From NCBI GenBank assembly GCA_018714805.1, contig DVMW01000039.1, positions 1 to 32,329 on the forward strand: a DNA stretch of 32,329 bases, read 5' to 3'. The notes below the pieces were generated by a model. That model did no database searches, had not been told where the DNA came from, and saw only the letters and a program-made list of their open reading frames with translations. Position 1 is the stretch's first letter. Every line of letters begins with the position of its first letter. Below, in pieces: positions 4,266 through 21,900 of this stretch. The DNA comes from Candidatus Fimenecus excrementigallinarum. GTDB taxonomy: Bacteria > Bacillota > Clostridia > Oscillospirales > Acutalibacteraceae. The translations under genes were made by a program, and so were the position numbers.

Positions 4266-5357
4266 TTACGCGAACCGGCAAATGGAATTGAGCGGGAATT
4301 TGCCGTCGCTGTATTTTTGCGCGCCGGACTCGAAAATGCCGATGACCGCGCCGTCCTTCCAGTCTATCCCCTCCAAAAGCGGGGGCAGGCGCCGTTCTTC
4401 GTGCCTTGCGTCCTTCGTGAGCGCATAGACCGGCGCTTCCCCGCCGGGGACGGTCAGGTAATAGGCGGGCTCGCGGCGGGTCACGTCGTCGAACACAAGC
4501 AGGTGCGAGTCCGTGTTGCGCCCGTAGGACGTGCTCAAGGCAAAACCGCCGTCCGCGGTGCGCGCAAGCCCCTGCACAAGGTTCGGCGTGGTCAGCGCAA
4601 AGGCGGGGACAGGCACCGTGTCGTTGCCCGCCTGGAACGCGGCGTCGAGCGCGCCGAGGGCATACGCGTTGCAGCGGGAAAAGTGCAACTCCCGCATCGT
4701 CATCTGCATATGGTGCGTCGCGTCCGTACCGTAGCGTTCGTCGGGATAGTAGGTGTAAAACTCCCCGGCGTACAGGTACGTCCCGTCGCAATGGATGTAG
4801 GAGCAGCGCACGTCGGTCTGCACAAAGGCGTCGAGCGTGAGCGTCCCGCCGTCGGACAGCGCCCGCAGGGCCTCCAGCGCAAAGCGGTAAATCCGGTCGC
4901 CCGAGCAGAGGTACAAATACCGTTCGCTGTCGGCAAGCCCGCCCGCATGGCCGGTAAAATCGCTTCGGTCCGCGTTTTGCAGCCGCAGCGTTTTGGTGCG
5001 CGCGCCGGCGTCGTCCACAAAGCTCAGCACGGAGGCGCCGTCGTCGTGGTAATAGGACACCACGTGGCTTTCCAGCGCCTCGCAATAGCAGTAGCCCTGC
5101 GGCACATAGCCGTTTTCGACCTCCGGGATGTCGGCAAGCGGCGTGTAGCCCGTATAGTCGTTGTCGCTGTGTATGGCGCCGCGCACCCCGCGCACAATCG
5201 TTTCCGAAACGTTTGCAAGCGCCTTGCGGTACCCCGTCGCCGCCCGCGGCGCGTTTGCGCCCCCGACGAAATACGCGGCCGTGCCGACGGCCAGCAGCCC
5301 CGCAAGCGCAATCGCGGCGGCCTTTCCGAGCTTCCCCTGCCGGTTTCGTTTTTTCAT
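4266..5357 (-). CDS. Membrane-anchored extracytoplasmic protein of unknown function, possibly propeller-like
   Basis: I do not recognise the family. The protein has 363 residues from ATG 5357, which follows a GGGGGG ribosome site; the frame continues upstream but only through a terminator and the neighbouring gene. Residues 2-11 are basic (KKRNRQGKLGK), residues 13-33 form one hydrophobic segment (AAAIALAGLLAVGTAAYFVG) without a lipobox cysteine, and the rest is soluble, so it should be a signal-anchored outside protein. The body is rich in aromatic beta-strand-like stretches with recurring patterns (RYLYLCSGDRIYRFAL, GTYLYAGEFYTYY, GGFALSTSYG, SHLLVFDDV), which suggests a beta-propeller but does not prove it. 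It lies immediately beyond the terminator of the SCP2/transketolase unit and has no room for its own promoter there. Confidence 0.7.
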   Translation of the reverse strand: MKKRNRQGKLGKAAAIALAGLLAVGTAAYFVGGANAPRAATGYRKALANVSETIVRGVRGAIHSDNDYTGYTPLADIPEVENGYVPQGYCYCEALESHVVSYYHDDGASVLSFVDDAGARTKTLRLQNADRSDFTGHAGGLADSERYLYLCSGDRIYRFALEALRALSDGGTLTLDAFVQTDVRCSYIHCDGTYLYAGEFYTYYPDERYGTDATHHMQMTMRELHFSRCNAYALGALDAAFQAGNDTVPVPAFALTTPNLVQGLARTADGGFALSTSYGRNTDSHLLVFDDVTRREPAYYLTVPGGEAPVYALTKDARHEERRLPPLLEGIDWKDGAVIGIFESGAQKYSDGKFPLNSICRFA

Positions 5358-5373
5358 AGCCGTTCCCCCCGGG

Positions 5374-5409
5374 AAAAAGAGGGGCGCGCCATCCGAAAAC
5401 GGCACGCCC
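5374..5409 (-). terminator. Terminator at the end of the SCP2/transketolase operon
   Basis: Read on the minus strand, GGGCGTGCC (5409-5401) pairs with GGCGCGCCC (5390-5382) with one G-U pair, followed by CTCTTTTT. It lies 12 bases after the stop of the second SCP2-like gene and 16 bases before the start of the 4266-5357 gene. Confidence 0.8.
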
Positions 5410-5421
5410 TTTTTGTAAAGC

Positions 5422-6228
5422 TTATTTTGCCAGCGCGGCGACCTCGAGCATATAGGTGCCCAGCTGCCCGCCGAATTCCGGCGCGCCGTCCATGATAAGA
5501 CGGCCCTTCTTGACCGCTTCGAGCATATCGTCGGTGCCGAGCAGGATGCCCAGCGCGCTGTCGAGCGAGTCAAAGCGCAGCGTGAAGAACGGCATGGCGC
5601 GTTTGTACTCGCCCCTGCCCGCGCGCGATTTGCCCGCCTTGATGCGCAGGTACGCCGAGACCTGCGGATACCCGTTGACCGCCCAAGCGTAAACGCGGTC
5701 GGGGCTCTTGGAGGTCCAGCCGTGGATGTCCTCGTGCCCCATTTTGTTCAGCTGGCTGATGCCCGACGACAGCAGGTAAAAGAAGCATTTGACCATGAGC
5801 TCCTTCGTCGCGTCGTCCTTGGGCGCTTCGGTGGCGCCCAGCAGCGAGGACATTTTGAGCAGCGTCATCAAAAACGCCTTGAACGCGCCGAAATGCGAGA
5901 ACACACCGCGCATTTTCGGCAGCGTGGCGGGCCCAATCTTGCCCTTAAAAAAGGCGTTCATCGCCTCCACGCTCTTAAATTCCAGCTCCACGTGCGGGTG
6001 CGGCTCGACCTTATTGAGGTGAACGAGCCACTCGTCGCTGTTGACGACGAAATGCATCCCGACCTTGCCGCCCTCGGCGTCCGGGTCCAGGGCGCTGACC
6101 TGAATGACGGCGTGGACCTTTTGGAACTGCTTTTTCAAGGAAGGTACGTCGGTCGCAATGACCTTCACCAGCGGCAGCGCGGCGTTGAAAAAAATCTTAT
6201 TGGAATACAGCTCTTCTTTGGTATGCAA
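5422..6228 (-). CDS. SCP2 sterol-binding-like protein, probable tandem repeat (second of the cluster)
   Basis: About 268 residues resembling the SCP2 (sterol carrier protein 2) fold, whose members bind lipids or other hydrophobic ligands in a pocket. Two SCP2-like halves can be seen: one ending HVELEFKSVEAMNAFFKGKI followed by LPKMRG, and one ending FFTLRFDSLDSALGILLG then DDMLEAVKKGRLIMDG. These match the strand-helix-strand end of the fold (hydrophobic x-F-x-S, then a helix, a GKI or KGR turn and a final strand). The start is uncertain. GTG 6237 has AAAGGAG only one base away, while TTG 6228 has the normal spacing of about ten bases, so 6228 is used. It is the last gene of the operon, 36 bases after the transketolase C half, and is followed by a terminator. 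The ligand is unknown. Confidence 0.75.
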   Translation of the reverse strand: MHTKEELYSNKIFFNAALPLVKVIATDVPSLKKQFQKVHAVIQVSALDPDAEGGKVGMHFVVNSDEWLVHLNKVEPHPHVELEFKSVEAMNAFFKGKIGPATLPKMRGVFSHFGAFKAFLMTLLKMSSLLGATEAPKDDATKELMVKCFFYLLSSGISQLNKMGHEDIHGWTSKSPDRVYAWAVNGYPQVSAYLRIKAGKSRAGRGEYKRAMPFFTLRFDSLDSALGILLGTDDMLEAVKKGRLIMDGAPEFGGQLGTYMLEVAALAK

Positions 6229-6264
6229 AGCTTTCACGCTCCTTTCTCGACTGCAAGGGGGACT

Positions 6265-7275
6265 TTAAACTTCGTCGTCCCAGTTGTCGTCGAGCTCGAA
6301 GTCCTTGTGCATGACCTCGCGGACGGCTTCAATGATGCCGTTGGCGTCGATGCCGACGATGGACATGATGTCCTCATGCAGGCCGATGGGCGCGAACTGG
6401 TCCGGATGGCCGAGCTTTTTGAACGCGCAGCCCTTGCCGGATTCCACCACGACCTCCGCGACGGCGGAGCCCAGGCCGCCGAGCACGCTGTGGTCCTCCA
6501 CGGTGATGATGCGGCGCGTATCCTGCACCGCCTTGAGGATGGCTTCCTTGTCAATCGGCTTAATCGTGTGCATATTGAGCACGCGGACCTTTAAGCCGTC
6601 GGCCGAATCGAGGAACTTCGCCGCCTCGCGCGCCTGGAACACGCACGAACCGCAGGCGATAACGGTGATGTCGGTGCCGGGGTGGACCTCCACCGCCTTG
6701 CCGACCTCAAAGCCGTAATCCTCGTTGTCATACAGCACGCGGTCAAAGCCGCGGTTGATGCGGATATAGTAGGGGCCGAAATTCTCATACGCCGCCTTGA
6801 CCGCGTTGGCGGTCTCGTAGCCGTCCGCCGGGCAAATGACCGTCAGGTTCGGCATGGCGCGCGTCACGGCCAAATCGACAATGGCGTGGTGCGTCGAGCC
6901 CGCCTGGCCGAACGACGTGCCCGCGTGGGTCGCGATGATTTTGGCGTTGACGTTCTGGTAGCAGATGTCGGTGTGCAGCTGGTCCGCCGCGCGCAGCGAC
7001 GCGAACACCGAGAAGGTGGACGCAAAGGGCACAAGCCCCGCGCGCGCCATGCCGGCCGCGACGCCCAGCATATTCTGTTCGGCGATGCCGACGTTGAACA
7101 CGCGCTCCGGGCAGGCGTTGGTGAAATCCTGCAGCTTCGTCGAGGTCGCAAGGTCCGCCGTGACGGCGACAATCTCCTTGTGCTCCTTGGCAAGATTTGC
7201 CAGCGTTTTGCCGTAGATTTCCGAGGTGGAAAGCTCGGGGGTCTCAATGACGTTGTAAACGAATCCTCCAGCCAT
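6265..7275 (-). CDS. Transketolase, C-terminal subunit (pyrimidine-binding and C-terminal domains)
   Basis: This 336-residue protein is the C half of a split transketolase, covering the thiamine-diphosphate pyrimidine domain and the transketolase C-terminal domain. It carries VTADLATSTK (38-47) and the catalytic-glutamate motif VGIAEQNM (62-69, Glu66), which activates the cofactor. Later motifs are typical of the family: HAGTSFGQAGSTHHAIVDLA, then CPADGYET and TVEDHSVLGGLGSAV. With the N half it should move a two-carbon ketol unit from a ketose to an aldehyde. ATG 7275 shares one base with the stop of the N half (TAATG), so the two are co-translated in equal amounts. Split transketolases occur in many Clostridia and archaea. 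Which sugar or aldehyde is used here is not evident. Confidence 0.93.
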   Translation of the reverse strand: MAGGFVYNVIETPELSTSEIYGKTLANLAKEHKEIVAVTADLATSTKLQDFTNACPERVFNVGIAEQNMLGVAAGMARAGLVPFASTFSVFASLRAADQLHTDICYQNVNAKIIATHAGTSFGQAGSTHHAIVDLAVTRAMPNLTVICPADGYETANAVKAAYENFGPYYIRINRGFDRVLYDNEDYGFEVGKAVEVHPGTDITVIACGSCVFQAREAAKFLDSADGLKVRVLNMHTIKPIDKEAILKAVQDTRRIITVEDHSVLGGLGSAVAEVVVESGKGCAFKKLGHPDQFAPIGLHEDIMSIVGIDANGIIEAVREVMHKDFELDDNWDDEV

Positions 7276-8153
7276 TACGCAAACTCCTTTCCGCAGCGTT
7301 CGATGCGCTCGGCGCTGTACGCGTCGAGGTCCTTGGCCGCCTCTTTCGCCATTTCCTCGTCGATGGCGCCGTAGTGCCACTTGTAGTTGCCCGCTGTCAG
7401 CTTAATGCCGACGCCCTTGACGGTATCCGCCACAATGACGCTCGGCTTTTCGGTGCAGGCGTGCGCCTCGTCAATGGCGCGGCACAAATCCACAATGTCG
7501 TTGCCGTTGCAGGTGATGGTGTTGAGCCCGAACGCCGTAAACTTTTCGGGCAGGGGCTCGAGCTTCATCACGTCTTCGGTGTTGCCGTCAATCATGCAGT
7601 GGTTGCGGTCGACAATCGTAATGCAGTTGGTGAGGTTGTAGTGGCGGATGGTCATCAGGCCCTCCCAGTTGGAGCCCTCGTCCAGCTCGCCGTCGCCCGT
7701 CACGACGTAGGTCGTATAGTCCTTGCCGAGCACCCGCGCCGCAATGGCCGTGCCGGCGGCGATAGGGATGCCGTGGCCCAGCGAGCCGGTGGACGCGTCC
7801 ACGCCGACGACCTTGTTGGAGTCGAGGTGGATGCCCATTTTGGAATTCGTCAGGTTAAAGGTTTTCAGCTGCTCGGGGTCGTTCCACCCCAGGTCGCACA
7901 GCACCGGCGCATAGGCGATGCCCGCGTGGCCCTTGCTGAGAATGAAGCGGTCGCGGTCCTCCCACTTCGGGTCGTCGAGCTTGAGGTTCAAATAGCGGTG
8001 GTACATAACGGTCAAAATGTCCATCACGCTCATACCGCCGCCGATGTGGCCGCTGCCCGCCCAGACCGTCGTCTGTAAGCAGAGATGGCGCAGGTCGTTG
8101 GCTTTTTTCTCCAGCGCCAGCCATTCGTCCTTGGTCAAAGGTGCTCTTTGCAT
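7275..8153 (-). CDS. Transketolase, N-terminal subunit (thiamine-diphosphate-binding domain)
   Basis: This 292-residue protein is the PP-binding half of a split transketolase. Visible residues are GSGH (33-36), KGH (74-76), GSLGHG (123-128), and the metal/diphosphate motif GDGELDEGSN (153-162), all in the expected order; ANDLRHLCL near the N-terminus is also typical. The start ATG 8153 has GGGAGG upstream on the minus strand. It lies 40 bases downstream of the aminotransferase and overlaps the C half by one base. In single-chain transketolases these two parts are fused in about 650 residues; here they total 628, so nothing large is missing. The heterodimer (or heterotetramer) should be cytosolic. 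Confidence 0.94.
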   Translation of the reverse strand: MQRAPLTKDEWLALEKKANDLRHLCLQTTVWAGSGHIGGGMSVMDILTVMYHRYLNLKLDDPKWEDRDRFILSKGHAGIAYAPVLCDLGWNDPEQLKTFNLTNSKMGIHLDSNKVVGVDASTGSLGHGIPIAAGTAIAARVLGKDYTTYVVTGDGELDEGSNWEGLMTIRHYNLTNCITIVDRNHCMIDGNTEDVMKLEPLPEKFTAFGLNTITCNGNDIVDLCRAIDEAHACTEKPSVIVADTVKGVGIKLTAGNYKWHYGAIDEEMAKEAAKDLDAYSAERIERCGKEFA

Positions 8154-8193
8154 GGTTTTCCTCCCTTATATCCTGCGGCAGACGCCGCAAACA

Positions 8194-9462
8194 TTAGCCC
8201 TTAAGCTCCGGGTGCCGCTTTTCCACGACGGAAAAGGCGTCCTCGGCAATTTCGACGGCCAGCTTGATGTCCTCGTCGGTGACGGCGGCGTTGATGAAGT
8301 GGTTGTGGTGCGACGCCAGGAACAGCCCGCGGCTGACGCATTCGGCTATCCACTCCTGGTGCAGCATCAGGCTGTCGTCGTTCGCAATGCGCAGATAGAA
8401 CAGCGCCGGCTCGCCGGTTACGACCAGGTCAAAGCCGTGCTCGGCCGCGGCGGCCTTGAAGCCCTCGGTCAGCTTCGTGCCCTTTTCGCGGAACAGCGTC
8501 GGGATGTCGAGCTTTTTCATCTTGTTGATGCACGCAATGCAGGCCGCGAACGGCACGGCGCTCATCCAGTACGAGCCCGTATAGGTAATGCCCGAGACGG
8601 TGCTCTTCATGTGCGCGCCGCCGCAAAGCGCCGACATATTGTAGCCGTTGGCAAGCGCCTTGCAGAAGCAGATAAGGTCCGCCTTGATGCCGTAGTAGTG
8701 GTCGGAGCCCTGCAAATCGAGCCGGAAGCCCGTGCGCACGTCGTCGAAAATCAGGACCATGCCCTTTTCGTCGCAGAACTTGCGCACCGCCTGCCAATAT
8801 GCCTTGGAGGCGACTTCGTTGTCCTTGAAATTGCCGTGGTCATAGGGCTGGGCGATAAGGCCGGCCACGTCGCCGTCGCAGGCGTTGTACGCGTCCTCGA
8901 GCGCCTGCAGGTTAAACCACGGGACGACCACGTTGTTCGCGACGTCCTCGGGCAGGATGCCGGGGTAGTCGACCTTCTGCGCCCACTGGAAGTCGCCGTG
9001 GTAATAGCCCTTTAAGAAGAACATCTTCTTTTTGTGCGTATGCGCGCGCGCCGCCATAACCGCAAGGGTCGTGGTGTCCGAGCCGTTCTTCGCAAAAAAC
9101 GCCCAGTCGGCCGACGCAACCGTGTCGACCAGGTTTTCGGCGCATTCCACCATGACCTTGGACGGCGAGGTGGTGCAGTTGCCCTTTTTCAGCTGCTTTA
9201 AGGCCGCGGCGTCGACGTCGGGGTCGTTGTAGCCGAGCACGTTCGGGCCGTAGGCGCACATGAAGTCGAGATACTTGTTGCCGTCAACGTCCCAAAAATA
9301 GGTGCCCTGCGCCTTTTCCGAGAAAAAGGGCCATTTCGAAACCGGCACCCAAAGCCCTTCGGCGGGGCCCAGGTGGCCGTAAATGCCCGAGGGGATAACC
9401 TGGATGGCGCGGTTAAAATATTCGCGGCTCTTGTCGTGTTTGTACTCCGGAAATTTGCTCAT
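8194..9462 (-). CDS. PLP-dependent class III aminotransferase, glutamate-1-semialdehyde aminomutase-like
   Basis: A 422-residue fold-type I, class III aminotransferase closest in style to HemL. Seen in order: GNKYLDFMCAYGPNVLGY (61-78), phosphate-binding NGSDTTT (126-132), YYHG (153-156), the cofactor-contacting FDDVRTGFR (239-247; HemL usually has FDEV, so Asp replaces Glu), and the Schiff-base lysine in CKALANGY (Lys268). Genuine HemL sits with other haem genes; here the neighbours are transketolase halves and SCP2-like proteins, so it is probably not tetrapyrrole synthesis but amination (or amino-group shift) of another carbonyl compound. ATG 9462 has AAGGAGG nine bases upstream, which overlaps the stop codon of the preceding SCP2 gene. 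The substrate is unknown. Confidence 0.9.
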   Translation of the reverse strand: MSKFPEYKHDKSREYFNRAIQVIPSGIYGHLGPAEGLWVPVSKWPFFSEKAQGTYFWDVDGNKYLDFMCAYGPNVLGYNDPDVDAAALKQLKKGNCTTSPSKVMVECAENLVDTVASADWAFFAKNGSDTTTLAVMAARAHTHKKKMFFLKGYYHGDFQWAQKVDYPGILPEDVANNVVVPWFNLQALEDAYNACDGDVAGLIAQPYDHGNFKDNEVASKAYWQAVRKFCDEKGMVLIFDDVRTGFRLDLQGSDHYYGIKADLICFCKALANGYNMSALCGGAHMKSTVSGITYTGSYWMSAVPFAACIACINKMKKLDIPTLFREKGTKLTEGFKAAAAEHGFDLVVTGEPALFYLRIANDDSLMLHQEWIAECVSRGLFLASHHNHFINAAVTDEDIKLAVEIAEDAFSVVEKRHPELKG

Positions 9463-9477
9463 TCGAAACGCCCTCCT

Positions 9478-10239
9478 TTACGCCAGATACAATGCGACGC
9501 GGTCGAGGATGCGGTTCATGTTGTCGACCATGGACAGCATCCCGCGGATTTCCACCGTGCCAAGGCCGATGCACTCGAGCGCGTTGATTTTGCCCGTGAA
9601 CAGGTCGTGCGCCAGCTGCAGAGAGTCGAACTGCATAATGGCGCGCGGTTTTTCGGGCGCTTTTTTAATCGCGAGCAGGTGGTGGTCCTTCACGCGCAGC
9701 GTCGCCGCGGGACCGTCCTTGATGAGGAACGCCACGTCGCCGTCGAGCATATACGACGCGCTCGCCCGGCCTATCGCGTCCTGGTTGCCAATCTGCGCTA
9801 GGGAAACGGCAATCGTGTAGAACGTCAGTTCCGTGGAAAGCCTGAAAAACGCGGGGTCCCGCAAAGCCTCCTCGCTCGGGCGCAAAAGCTCCGTCAGACG
9901 GTCGGTCAGGGCGACGAAGGTCTTGAGCAAAAAGCCGATTTTCGTAAAGCCCTTGACGGGGACGGGCGTGACGGTGCCGTCAATCATCCCGTTGAACTGC
10001 TTGCAGGAAGCGAAGGGAATGAGGATGTCGTGCGGCTGTTTGCCGTCCTCCATGCGGCAGCCCTTGCAGGTGAATTTGATGGTCGCCGTGGGGCCGTCCT
10101 TGACGTCAAAGCAGACGGAGACGGGCTTTTTCAGCTCGTACAAAATTTCCTTGGCTTTGGTGTCGAGCTCGCACAGATTCTCGAGCGTCCCGAGGACGCC
10201 GTACAGGTTGACGAATGCGAGGGTTCTCGAATCGGTCAA
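9478..10239 (-). CDS. Tandem SCP2 sterol-binding-like protein (first gene of the cluster)
   Basis: A 253-residue protein made of two SCP2-like domains. The duplication is readable: KDGPTATI at 47-54 and KDGPAATL at 174-181 occupy equal places at the start of each half, and each half then runs through a strand-helix segment (IPFASCKQFNGMIDGTV; MQFDSLQLAHDLFTGKI). The SCP2 fold binds fatty acyl, sterol or other apolar ligands. The start is TTG 10239, chosen because AAAGGAGG lies seven bases upstream; the upstream in-frame extension (to 10317) would cross the promoter. It is the first gene behind a near-consensus promoter, with the aminotransferase 15 bases downstream. Its ligand is unknown; it may present a hydrophobic substrate to the enzymes encoded next to it. 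Confidence 0.78.
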   Translation of the reverse strand: MTDSRTLAFVNLYGVLGTLENLCELDTKAKEILYELKKPVSVCFDVKDGPTATIKFTCKGCRMEDGKQPHDILIPFASCKQFNGMIDGTVTPVPVKGFTKIGFLLKTFVALTDRLTELLRPSEEALRDPAFFRLSTELTFYTIAVSLAQIGNQDAIGRASASYMLDGDVAFLIKDGPAATLRVKDHHLLAIKKAPEKPRAIMQFDSLQLAHDLFTGKINALECIGLGTVEIRGMLSMVDNMNRILDRVALYLA

Positions 10240-10298: not shown

Positions 10299-10327
10299 AG
10301 TATAACAAAGTTTTCATGCAAAGTCAA
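10299..10327 (-). promoter_or_regulatory. Promoter of the SCP2/aminotransferase/transketolase operon
   Basis: On the minus strand TTGACT (10327-10322), 17 bases, then TATACT (10304-10299), close to the sigma-A consensus, 60 bases ahead of the TTG start. The strength suggests steady, high expression; I see no operator-like palindrome over it. Confidence 0.88.
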
Positions 10328-17057: not shown

Positions 17058-17100
17058 TAAAAAATCGCCCGCATTCTGCCGTTCGGCAAAACAGGGGCGA
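17058..17100 (-). terminator. Regulated terminator of the leuA T-box leader
   Basis: Minus strand TCGCCC (17100-17095) pairs with GGGCGA (17070-17065), an inner TGCCG/CGGCA hairpin sits in the loop, and six Ts follow (17064-17059). It overlaps the antiterminator side just after the T-box sequence, as expected for a transcriptional T-box. Confidence 0.85.
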
Positions 17101-17340
17101 GGAAGCTTCCACGCGGTACCACCCTAATTCAGCGGCGAAAACGCCGCCCTCTTGACGACCTCCAACAAGGTCTGACCCGATAACGAGGTCAACCGTCCCG
17201 GCCTATGCTTTCAGCCGGGCGACTCCGGAACGAGCTATGCGCAAACCCTCCGTACTGCCTCGCACCACACGGCAGCTCTCTGAAACCCTCCGGTTTGCCT
17301 TATTTCCTTCACAGTCTTTGACAGGCGATATTCTATTGGT
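17058..17340 (-). promoter_or_regulatory. Leucine T-box leader of leuA
   Basis: The conserved T-box core AGGGTGGTACCGCG lies at 17125-17112 (minus strand). Stem I features are visible upstream: the AG bulge AGAGAG (17281-17276), the distal stem CTGCC/GGCAG around the loop GTGCGAG, and a specifier-loop candidate CTC (17234-17232) in TAGCTCGTT, a leucine codon. The closing GACT/AGTC pair brackets stem I. Uncharged leucine tRNA should stabilise the antiterminator and allow reading into leuA-methyltransferase-leuB. The specifier fits the leuA gene it precedes. Confidence 0.93.
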
Positions 17341-19717: not shown

Positions 19718-19840
19718 GCTTCTAAGCCCGCCCGGCATAAGCCGGCGCGCGGCAAAGCGCCGGCGGCACGCGTTCGCGGCCGGCAAAATCCGGAAGGAAA
19801 GGAGAAGGCCCTTTTGAAATTTTCGGGCGGAAACGAAAAT

Positions 19841-20020
19841 AGCGCCGGGCCTGCGGCGGGACGCGCGTCCTTTTCGGCGCGCCGCAGGTGACGAGGAAGA
19901 AGTAATCGAAGGTTTCGGCGGATGCTTCTTGCCCCGGATGTGCGGGGGCAGGACCGTCTTGCGGGCGTTATGCGCCGCAGGACGTCCGCGCGTTTTGCAA
20001 AACCGGACGGCGACGTCCGG
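19841..20020 (+). ncRNA. glmS ribozyme (glucosamine-6-phosphate-activated self-cleaving riboswitch)
   Basis: The sequence follows the glmS ribozyme consensus in order: cleavage-site AGCGCC at 19841-19846 (cut expected between A19841 and G19842), a long GC-rich P1 hairpin (GGCCTGCGGC...GCCGCAGG), the core GACGAGGAAGAAG, then ATCGAAGGTTTCGGCGGATG and CTTCTTG, which match the conserved P2/P2.1 and ligand-binding core of the Bacillus subtilis RNA, a P3 hairpin (CCCCGGATGTGCGGGG) and a P4 hairpin (GACGTCC 19981-19987 with GGACGTC near the end). When glucosamine-6-phosphate is abundant it cleaves its own transcript, and the 5'-OH product is degraded, lowering GlmS. The next gene is glmS, as expected. 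Confidence 0.93.
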
Positions 20021-20073
20021 CACAAACAAAGCGCGGCGCGCAAATTTTTGAAATTTGCAAAGGAACGATATCT

Positions 20074-21900
20074 ATGTGTGGAATCGTCGGATATATCGGC
20101 GCGCAGGACGCGGCGCCGATACTGTTGGATGGACTCGGCAAGCTGGAGTACCGCGGGTACGACTCGGCCGGCGTCGCGCTGGCGGACGGCGCGGGCATAA
20201 CGGTCGTCAAAACCAAGGGCCGCGTGCAGGACCTGCGCAGCAAGCTGAAGGCCGCCGGCGCAATTGGCGGCACCGTCGGCATCGGGCACACGCGCTGGGC
20301 GACGCACGGCGCGCCCAACGACGTCAACGCCCACCCGCACACGAGCACGAGCGGCCGCGTTACGCTGGTGCACAACGGCATTATTGAAAATTATGCCGCC
20401 ATTGCCGCCATGCTGGAAACGGCGGGCTACCGCTTTGTTTCCGAAACGGACACCGAGGTGCTCGCGCAGCTGTTCGACTACTACTATACCGGCGACGCGG
20501 TCGACGCGATGTGCCGCGTCATGCGGACGGTGCGCGGCTCTTACGCCGTGGCGGTGCTCACCGCCGACCGTCCCGACCGAATCCTTGCGGCAAAAAAGGA
20601 CAGCCCGCTCATTTTGGGGCGCGGCGACGGGGAAAACTTCCTCGCCTCCGACATCCCCGCCCTTTTGCGCTACACGCGCGACTGCTATCTGCTCGACGAC
20701 GGGGAAATCGCCGTTTTGACCCGCGATTCGACGGCCTTTTTTGACGCGTCGGGCGCCCCCGTGCAAAAGGAAATCTATCATGTGACCTGGGACGCCGAAG
20801 CGGCGGAGAAGGGCGGCTACGCGCATTTCATGAAAAAGGAGATTGCCGAGCAGCCCCGCGCGGTGCGCGAAACGCTGGCGGCGCGCATGGAGGACGGCCG
20901 CGTCTCGCTTTCCGACCTGCGCCTGACGGACGACGACATCCGAAAGATTGGCAAAATCCACATCGTCGCCTGCGGCAGCGCCTGGCACGTGGGCGTCGCG
21001 GCAAAATACATTTGGGAGTCGGCCTCGCGCATTCCGTGCGAAACGGACCTTGCCAGCGAATTCCGCTACCGCGAGCCGCTTGTGCAGCCGGGCGACCTGT
21101 GCGTCGTGATTAGCCAGTCCGGCGAAACCGCCGACACGCTTGCGGCGCTGCGGGAGGCGAAGGCGCGCGGCGCGCGGGTGCTTTCCGTCGTCAACGTCGT
21201 TGCGAGCACCATCGCCCGCGAGAGCGACGACGTGCTGTACACGCTCGCGGGGCCGGAAATCGCCGTCGCCACGACCAAGGCGTTTTCCGCGCAGCTTGCG
21301 GTTGTCTACCTTCTGGCGCTGCGCTTTGCGCGGGCGAAGGGAACGCCGTTTGCCGCGCGTGAGGCGGAGGTCTGCGCCGCGCTTTTGCGGCTGCCCGAGC
21401 AGCTGGAGGGTCTTTTGCAGCTGGATGACCGCATGGCGGGGCTCGCACGGCAGTTTGCCGCGGCGAAAAGCCTGTTTTTCCTCGGGCGCGGGCTCGACTA
21501 CGCCATTGCGCTGGAGGGCTCGCTGAAGCTCAAGGAAATCTCCTACCTGCATTCGGAGGCGTATGCCGCCGGCGAGCTCAAGCACGGCACCATCTCCCTG
21601 ATTGAACCGGGGACGCCGGTCGTCGCGGTGGCGACGCAGGACGCGCTGTATGAAAAAATGCTCGCGAACATCAAGGAGGTCTGCGCGCGCGGCGCGCGGG
21701 TGATTGCGTTCGTCTGCGGCGAGCACCCGGAGCTTGCCGGCCTTGCCGAAACGGTCGTCCAAATTCCCGAGACCGAGGCGTTCTTCAAGCCGTCGCTCGA
21801 CGTTGTGCCGCTGCAGCTGTTCGCCTACTACATGGCGCTCGAGCGCGGCTGCGACGTGGATAAACCCCGCAACCTCGCAAAATCCGTCACCGTCGAATAA
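20074..21900 (+). CDS. glmS: Glutamine--fructose-6-phosphate aminotransferase (isomerizing)
   Basis: A 608-residue GlmS, converting fructose-6-phosphate and glutamine to glucosamine-6-phosphate, the entry to peptidoglycan amino sugars. The N-terminal glutaminase domain starts MCGIVGYIG with the nucleophile Cys2, followed by LEYRGYDSAGVAL and GHTRWATHG. The isomerase part has two SIS domains: VACGSAWHVG (about 298-307), SQSGETADT (about 347), and SEAYAAGELKHGTISLIEPG (about 494-513), ending with the conserved LAKSVTVE. Full length. The ATG follows AAAGGA and matches the universal N-terminus, since Cys must be second. Regulated by the ribozyme in its leader and followed by a strong terminator. 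Confidence 0.98.
   Translation: MCGIVGYIGAQDAAPILLDGLGKLEYRGYDSAGVALADGAGITVVKTKGRVQDLRSKLKAAGAIGGTVGIGHTRWATHGAPNDVNAHPHTSTSGRVTLVHNGIIENYAAIAAMLETAGYRFVSETDTEVLAQLFDYYYTGDAVDAMCRVMRTVRGSYAVAVLTADRPDRILAAKKDSPLILGRGDGENFLASDIPALLRYTRDCYLLDDGEIAVLTRDSTAFFDASGAPVQKEIYHVTWDAEAAEKGGYAHFMKKEIAEQPRAVRETLAARMEDGRVSLSDLRLTDDDIRKIGKIHIVACGSAWHVGVAAKYIWESASRIPCETDLASEFRYREPLVQPGDLCVVISQSGETADTLAALREAKARGARVLSVVNVVASTIARESDDVLYTLAGPEIAVATTKAFSAQLAVVYLLALRFARAKGTPFAAREAEVCAALLRLPEQLEGLLQLDDRMAGLARQFAAAKSLFFLGRGLDYAIALEGSLKLKEISYLHSEAYAAGELKHGTISLIEPGTPVVAVATQDALYEKMLANIKEVCARGARVIAFVCGEHPELAGLAETVVQIPETEAFFKPSLDVVPLQLFAYYMALERGCDVDKPRNLAKSVTVE

Follow-up and report, generated by a model that had tools for sequence, protein, structure and literature searches.

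We have analysed a stretch of 32,329 nucleotides (the window; contig DVMW01000039.1, our C35) from Candidatus Fimenecus excrementigallinarum, the genome of which (GCA_018714805.1) is 1.87 Mb in size and 97% complete. On its minus strand, running head to tail from 10239 to 5422, is an operon of five genes that encode a tandem SCP2-like protein (S1), a class III aminotransferase dependent on pyridoxal phosphate (PLP) (AT), the two subunits of a split transketolase (TN and TC) and a second tandem SCP2-like protein (S2). The presence of this set was confirmed by a check of the open reading frames. It is a conserved system that is undescribed in the papers searched, and its parts belong to known families. 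We propose that the operon provides a two-step, lipid-handling breakdown of long-chain 2-amino-1,3-diols, i.e. sphingoid-type bases, and give this a probability of approximately 0.42. For the broader proposal, that a lipid-dedicated transketolase system with a tandem carrier for each enzyme cleaves or builds the sphingoid backbone independently of sphingosine-1-phosphate lyase and serine palmitoyltransferase (SPT), we consider the odds to be even.

AT (8194-9462, minus strand; 422 aa) matches the class III aminotransferases of Pfam (137.4 bits, above the cut-off) and retains the catalytic lysine, Lys268. The original prediction described it as HemL-like, which holds at the level of the superfamily; its nearest relative lies elsewhere. 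When a profile of 21 ATs was compared with solved structures, the aminopentol aminotransferase FumI of Sphingopyxis (PDB 6hbs) was the best of 196 with 342.9 bits, while the best HemL scored 205.4. Sequence identity of the window AT is 38% with FumI and 27.6% with one HemL, and 19 columns that are invariant in 26 operon ATs and seven FumI-group sequences are different in that HemL. In a tree the operon ATs and the FumI group are split from HemL by a branch with support of 100/99, and a 99/100 branch separates the 26 operon ATs from six plasmid-encoded FumI-group sequences. Note that the outgroup branches are long, prompting a program warning, and that the branching order among the FumI group, a set of 24 operon ATs (97/98) and the two most distant operon ATs (L141 and L143) is open, so the tree does not show all 26 operon ATs as one clade against FumI. 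A HemL function was rejected, with 190.9 bits against the TIGR00713 cut-off of 527.3 and the separation from AT and FumI in the tree. By its class III fold, catalytic lysine and closest kinship AT would therefore be classed as FumI-type. FumI transfers the C2 amine of hydrolysed fumonisin B1 to pyruvate (PMC2933618), and fumonisins are described as resembling sphingosine and sphinganine (PMC9858248). The substrate from which FumI removes this amine has a C3 hydroxyl beside it and a long chain.

The gene contexts of the plasmid FumI group include several arrangements that we record here. A Novosphingobium capsulatum plasmid (L148, 1483-10269) carries a FumI-group aminotransferase with two class II aldolase-family genes, a sugar kinase, an aldehyde dehydrogenase (ALDH) and a P450, which may be the same scheme built around an aldolase. 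Plasmids of Agrobacterium (L152) and Shinella (L153) have the aminotransferase near alpha-ketoacid dehydrogenase alpha and beta genes, a class IV aminotransferase and a four-carbon acid sugar kinase; L152 additionally has a class II aldolase.

The transketolase is split into TN (7275-8153, minus strand; 292 aa), the N-terminal subunit that binds thiamine pyrophosphate (TPP), and TC (6265-7275, minus strand; 336 aa), comprising the pyrimidine and C-terminal domains. Both exceed the Pfam cut-offs (Transketolase_N 154.9 bits; Transket_pyr 149.5 and Transketolase_C 94.1 bits). The equivalents of human H37, H77, H110, D155, N185 and H258 are kept in all 27 TN sequences, and that of the catalytic glutamate E366 in all 28 TC sequences. 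We presume the customary roles for these TPP-binding residues, the glutamate and the active-site histidines, and for the phosphate-site residues discussed below. On these features TN-TC can be assigned to the TPP transketolase family, and the intact TPP and PLP motifs that were originally reported are both found.

The acceptor site is altered in the operon enzymes. The aspartate (human D424) is replaced by alanine in 28 of 28 TC sequences (Ala125 in the window, codon 6901-6903 on the minus strand), and the glutamate (E423) by Gln, Thr or His. By contrast, the Glu-Asp pair is present in each of 27 control split transketolases, the top-scoring ones outside the operon, drawn from 27 genomes of the order. 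With the TC profile these controls reach no more than 335 bits, whereas the three operon TCs found in the same search score at least 536. The pair is found also in the other split transketolase of the window genome, in its DXS-like gene, in PDB 6yaj and in human transketolase. At the phosphate site R318 is replaced in 24 of 28 TCs (by Ser in the window) and kept in L135, L136, L138 and L142, whereas all 27 controls have Arg. The position of S345 is Ser in 25 and Thr in three (Ala, Ser or Thr in the controls), and H416 and R474 are kept in 28 of 28. Thus in the window R318 is the single change in the phosphate-site set, while one distant sequence, L142, retains the whole set. Judged by this alignment, the Glu-Asp pair and the full phosphate-site set of a pentose-phosphate transketolase are absent from the window TC. 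The original prediction had named a full set as a finding against it; lacking R318 the window does not have one, and L142 does. Retention of the other three phosphate residues in the window suggests that a sugar phosphate is probably still one partner in the reaction.

Using the shared GEDG motif we take human D424 to correspond to D469 of the E. coli and D477 of the yeast enzyme; we likewise take the TN histidine to be the equivalent of E. coli H100, and the acceptor-site aspartate to be the residue that reads the C4 hydroxyl. The E. coli and yeast aspartates are called equivalent in the literature (PMC5573996). Substitution D469A changed the propanal/glycolaldehyde ratio from 0.04 to 0.20, and D469T increased the specific activity for propanal by 4.9 fold (PMC3657141), while D477E was 50-100 fold better with aliphatic aldehydes (PMC5573996). 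D469T is said to yield a hydrophobic surface, and H100L was introduced so that pyruvate could act as donor (PMC10787763). Retention of the H100-equivalent histidine in 27 of 27 TNs is as expected for a donor with a C1 hydroxyl. The donor of TN-TC would then have a C1 hydroxyl, a C2 ketone and a C3 hydroxyl but no C4 hydroxyl, with the sugar phosphate on the other side. This is the pattern of deaminated sphinganine, which has hydroxyl groups at C1 and C3 and none at C4.

That the operon enzyme might be the sole transketolase of its genome was rejected, since the genome has another split transketolase and a DXS-like gene (identified by eye). As the other copy has the Arg and the Glu-Asp pair, that of the operon need not be the housekeeping enzyme. 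The operon transketolases form a subfamily of their own, marked by the altered acceptor site and accompanied by an SCP2-like protein.

S1 (9478-10239, minus strand; 253 aa with a TTG start) and S2 (5422-6237, minus strand; 271 aa) were originally described as SCP2-like. This stands at the level of predicted structure, where each is modelled as tandem SCP2-like domains with a mean predicted local distance difference test score of 92.7 (S1) and 91.2 (S2). It finds less support in sequence; S1 scores 14.6 bits against the Pfam SCP2 cut-off (PF02036) of 21.3, and S2 has no match at E 0.1, so the label rests on the modelled fold. In sequence searches of the PDB S1 had no match at E up to 1 and S2 had two at chance level. 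S1 and S2 are distant kin of each other (hhalign probability 94.5%), while the two halves of S2 show no profile similarity when compared (0.4%). The predicted fold is shared with human MFE-2 SCP2L, UbiJ, the C-terminal domain of SdsA1 and an insect SCP2 with a bound C16 fatty acid; S1 and S2 differ from these in having two domains per chain. By analogy with such folds S1 and S2 may act as lipid carriers, each for its own enzyme. Most S2 sequences share a conserved basic stretch in the second SCP2 half (RIKAGKSRAGRGEYKRA in the window), which was not seen in S1; it is a candidate for contact with the transketolase or the membrane.

Distant carriers show which genes belong together. The full S1-AT-TN-TC-S2 order is found in L139 and L140 (family f116), L141 (f117) and L134 (the window's family), but S1-AT and TN-TC-S2 lie on separate contigs in G857 (f190), and in G087 (f9; 60% complete) S1-AT is on one contig and TN-TC-S2-ALDH on another. 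In three genomes of f64 TN-TC-S2 is followed by a zinc alcohol dehydrogenase (ADH), with a MerR regulator also present in L136 and L138 (L137 stops at the contig edge), and G532 (f66) has TN-TC-S2-ADH-MerR-ALDH. No AT was found at E 1e-30 in these four genomes (G566 is 78% complete). Conversely, seven loci have S1-AT only; the genomes of two of these (L075 and L097) hold TN, TC and S2 elsewhere, and S2 was not found in the other five. From these gene sets it follows that S1 pairs with AT, and S2 with the transketolase.

Dehydrogenases are linked to the transketolase module. An ALDH joins it in three divergent lineages, immediately following S2 in L133 and L104 but two genes later in L135. Compared with solved structures the L133 ALDH is closest to 6k0z, and human fatty aldehyde dehydrogenase (4qgk) is among its best matches (E 5e-122). 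The zinc ADH is linked to the module in two families, and that of L136 matches alcohol dehydrogenase first, followed by ketose reductase and butanediol dehydrogenase. An ALDH elsewhere in the window's genus was considered as evidence and set aside; the window genome has a 445-bit Aldedh match, but because similar open reading frames in three other carriers (L157-L159) resemble methylmalonate-semialdehyde dehydrogenase by eye these were not counted.

Some further features of these loci may be noted. In L135 a glutamate 2,3-aminomutase (1264-2574; 662 bits, above the cut-off) lies upstream on the same strand as TN-TC-S2-ADH-MerR-ALDH. A gene like the NAD(P) transhydrogenase alpha subunit or alanine dehydrogenase (identity judged by eye) is on the opposite strand to S1-AT in L085, L087, L088, L090, L092 and L094 and in the distant L143, i.e. 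in two lineages that are far apart. L104 (JAUNQF010000017.1; labelled Coriobacteriia, 1.1 Mb) has three in-frame TGA codons at 7995-9260 and 9279-10172, two in AT and one in TN. All aligned homologues (21, 21 and 18 sequences) have Trp at these positions, so TGA may be read as Trp there; against this, three in-frame TGA codons in the L104 ALDH face F, N and K in the single homologue compared.

Conservation of the operon was studied by scanning contigs with AT, which gave at least 581 relatives among at least 590 candidate stretches, the best 80 of which were kept as named loci. All five genes are in order (the same order and strand, with gaps below 700 bases) in 65 of the 80; eight are cut by contig ends, and in the seven S1-AT loci other genes follow. 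S1 adjoins AT in all 80 except one that is cut by a contig end, and where both genes could be read the gap between them is 9-35 bases in 75 of 76. The question of whether the order is conserved across Clostridia is thus answered in the affirmative, and distant families of the phylum also carry the operon or its modules. In the genus S1 was found in 34 of 35 sampled species besides that of the window, although in G020 (same genus, 86% complete) no S1, S2 or AT was found. In the same sample a single S1 sequence used as query matched none of 23 genomes from other families. With the S2 profile, carriers number 6 of 295 sampled genomes in the order, 5 of 391 in the class and 5 of 398 in the phylum, that of the window being counted each time. 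Hence the operon is near-universal in the genus and scattered elsewhere, and where present its genes are mostly together. The scatter goes some way towards the distribution that the original prediction would have taken as contrary evidence, while the linkage of the genes does not. Among gene families common to at least five of 89 loci no further gene marks the unit across lineages; what was seen is local synteny (secA etc.) and, in two lineages, the transhydrogenase-like gene on the opposite strand. The operon is carried also by a cultured organism, Eubacterium coprostanoligenes ATCC 51222 (L079).

The genes are closely spaced in the window, with gaps of 15, 40, -1 and 27 bases from S1 through to S2, the TC start sharing one base with the TN stop. 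The sequence AGGAGG at 10252-10247 precedes the TTG start of S1. The single near-consensus promoter and single terminator ascribed to the operon are both present as sequence motifs. The former is TTGACT-17-TATACT with an extended -10 TG (10299-10327, minus strand; 10 of 12 consensus matches), and the latter a hairpin of 12 pairs with a T-rich tail (5382-5409, minus strand), 3′ to the S2 stop. In the 7 kb scanned there are 4 promoter-like sites, compared with 1.5 ± 1.3 in shuffled sequences; terminator-like sites are not enriched as a class (11 vs 9.0 ± 2.8). The promoter is seen again in near relatives, and a strict TTGAC...TA...T lies no more than 300 bases upstream of S1 in 32 of the 75 loci with sufficient upstream sequence.

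In the breakdown that we propose, S1 would present the sphingoid base to AT, as kinship with FumI suggests, and AT would move the C2 amine to an oxo-acid such as pyruvate, generating a 1,3-dihydroxy-2-ketone. S2 would then present the ketone to TN-TC, where the nature of the active site suggests that the C2-C3 bond would be cut as in a ketose. A fatty aldehyde would be released, and the C1-C2 ketol would go to an aldose phosphate (glyceraldehyde-3-phosphate, for example) and thereby feed the pentose-phosphate pool. The fatty aldehyde would be oxidized by the linked ALDH in lineages that have one, and in lineages without AT the zinc ADH may supply the 2-ketone. Nothing inside the operon fixes the direction. 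Breakdown is favoured because FumI is a deaminase, an ALDH is present in three lineages, and the ADH modules without AT can be read as another route to the 2-ketone.

A number of observations weigh against this proposal. The identity between AT and FumI is just 38%, and the plasmid enzymes of the FumI group have mixed gene contexts (6 of 33 matching records examined), so kinship alone cannot fix the substrate of AT. As D477E is effective (PMC5573996), a charged residue at that position is not in itself a bar to aliphatic aldehydes; with R318 kept in four of 28 TCs, the alanine is not proof of a lipid substrate. The five of seven S1-AT-only genomes without S2, together with the four TN-TC-S2 genomes without AT, indicate that the two steps are not strictly tied. 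For the ALDHs of L133 and L135 the top NCBIfam model is benzaldehyde dehydrogenase, below its cut-off, so that their substrate is not fixed either. In the window's genus there is no ALDH within the operon, nor is anything beyond the five genes fixed. A ceramidase was clear in one of 18 carriers (G857, 203 bits) and borderline in another (G365, 41.4 bits summed), with none of 14 non-carriers over the cut-off; it was therefore rejected as a general companion of the operon. With neither an operon ALDH nor a common ceramidase, the supply of sphingoid base and the fate of the aldehyde are unexplained in that genus. A mouse study placed Firmicutes in the fraction without uptake of labelled dietary sphinganine (PMC7910519), although the label might also disappear through degradation. 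Lastly, the presence of S1 throughout almost the whole genus fits a core biosynthetic role as well.

Synthesis is the direction that was originally predicted; the transketolase would extend a fatty aldehyde by a two-carbon ketol and AT would aminate C2, giving a sphingoid base or similar amino-diol lipid without SPT. We consider this unlikely, at around one chance in five. It draws on the same AT and transketolase evidence as breakdown, the transketolase reaction is reported to be reversible (PMC5573996), and the 34 of 35 congeners with S1 suggest a core function. The window genome has no alpha-oxoamine synthase (best 17.3 bits), and a TIGR01825 match above 40 bits is absent in 13 of 18 carriers, the other five scoring 368-570 bits. 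However, 13 of 14 non-carriers from the family also lack such SPT-type enzymes. Replacement of SPT by the operon, which the original prediction had raised, was thus rejected as a conclusion; the absence is family background, and decides neither replacement nor direction. One lead for the source of aldehyde is that two earlier cholesterol-reducing Eubacterium isolates needed plasmenylethanolamine, but E. coprostanoligenes ATCC 51222 is said to grow without it (PMC8468837). No linked enzyme for supply of the fatty aldehyde or completion of a sphingolipid was seen, the dehydrogenases linked in other lineages point to aldehyde removal, and FumI works as a deaminase. The kinship of AT, among solved enzymes, with one acting on a sphinganine analogue supports the sphingoid part of the original prediction, while the linked ALDH and ADH and the four genomes without AT fit breakdown better than synthesis. 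Overall that interpretation is partly supported.

The probability that remains beyond breakdown and synthesis lies with other substrates or with failure of the idea. The same chemistry might be directed at another hydrophobic amino-alcohol or amino-ketol, such as 1-deoxy or branched bases, fungal or plant toxins that are sphinganine analogues, or a lipid-linked amino polyol. The known FumI substrate is a C1-methyl analogue, and enzymes of the FumI group occur in several contexts. Yet the histidines kept in TN favour a C1 hydroxyl, which is absent from fumonisin-type bases, and possession of S1 by 34 of 35 congeners argues against an occasional toxin, so that we regard this too as a minority prospect, comparable with synthesis. 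Ordinary aminoketose or amino-sugar metabolism, catalysed by a class III aminotransferase and a side branch of the split transketolases while the SCP2-like proteins have an unrelated role, seems improbable, though the putative phosphate-site residues S345, H416 and R474 are kept in the window and the SCP2 label falls under the Pfam cut-off.

We may compare the breakdown proposed here with known systems. The nearest known kind is the sulfo-TK pathway (SqwGH) of the anaerobe Clostridium sp. MSTE9, in which a dedicated TPP transketolase transfers a C2 ketol from an unusual ketose to glyceraldehyde-3-phosphate and an ADH or ALDH removes the aldehyde (PMC12890257); it shows that bacteria of this sort can devote a transketolase to catabolism. 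The operon differs in having an aminotransferase that would make the ketone and two tandem SCP2 proteins, and its transketolase has no acceptor-site aspartate. No sulfoquinovose gene (SqvD, SqwI) stood out among neighbours common to at least five loci, where no search was aimed at these families. Although FumI resembles AT, no transketolase is listed in six FumI-group plasmid neighbourhoods. The Carboxydothermus split transketolase (6yaj/6yak) is the best solved match of TC and TN, with the same split and TPP machinery, but keeps the Arg and Glu-Asp at the acceptor site that the operon enzyme lacks. In prodigiosin synthesis PigD and PigE are a TPP enzyme followed by a class III aminotransferase acting on an aliphatic aldehyde, but the TPP family and the site of amination are different; AT scores 79.4 bits with the PigE model, the cut-off being 850. 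Sphingosine-1-phosphate lyase cuts the sphingoid C2-C3 bond and SPT makes it, and both use PLP rather than TPP. The latter reaction is described in PMC12134224. In a literature search confined to open-licence PMC papers, and thus weak as evidence of absence, neither the five-gene set nor a route to or from sphingoid bases using an aminotransferase and a transketolase was found. The extract of a paper on SpiR of E. coprostanoligenes (PMC13079761) mentions neither SCP2 nor transketolase.

Upstream of the operon secA is divergent, from 10448. Downstream, 4266-5363 encodes a predicted protein of 365 aa for which Pfam and NCBIfam gave nothing at E 0.1; of the 80 named loci three have a match to it, each from a close relative. 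A scan of the whole window with Rfam at gathering scores gave two matches, neither of them inside the operon. One is a glmS ribozyme (RF00234, 86.8 bits; 19830-20045), directly ahead of the glmS gene at 20074. The other is a T-box leader (RF00230, 108.5 bits; 17090-17321) at the start of leuA (17112-15298); leuB is at 14589-13450.

Sphingoid bases are lipids that are active in the host. If our proposal is correct, the operon would connect sphingolipids from the host, the diet and Bacteroides with sugar-phosphate metabolism in uncultured gut clostridia. The proposal would also name genes for the use or synthesis of sphingoid bases in poorly cultured gut clostridia and in the cultured, cholesterol-reducing E. 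coprostanoligenes. The transketolase would be a natural counterpart of variants engineered at apparently the same aspartate for aliphatic aldehydes, and a possible source of catalysts for chiral amino-diols. What gut bacteria that lack SPT do with sphingolipids could then be tested directly, using two enzymes and a single cultured type strain.

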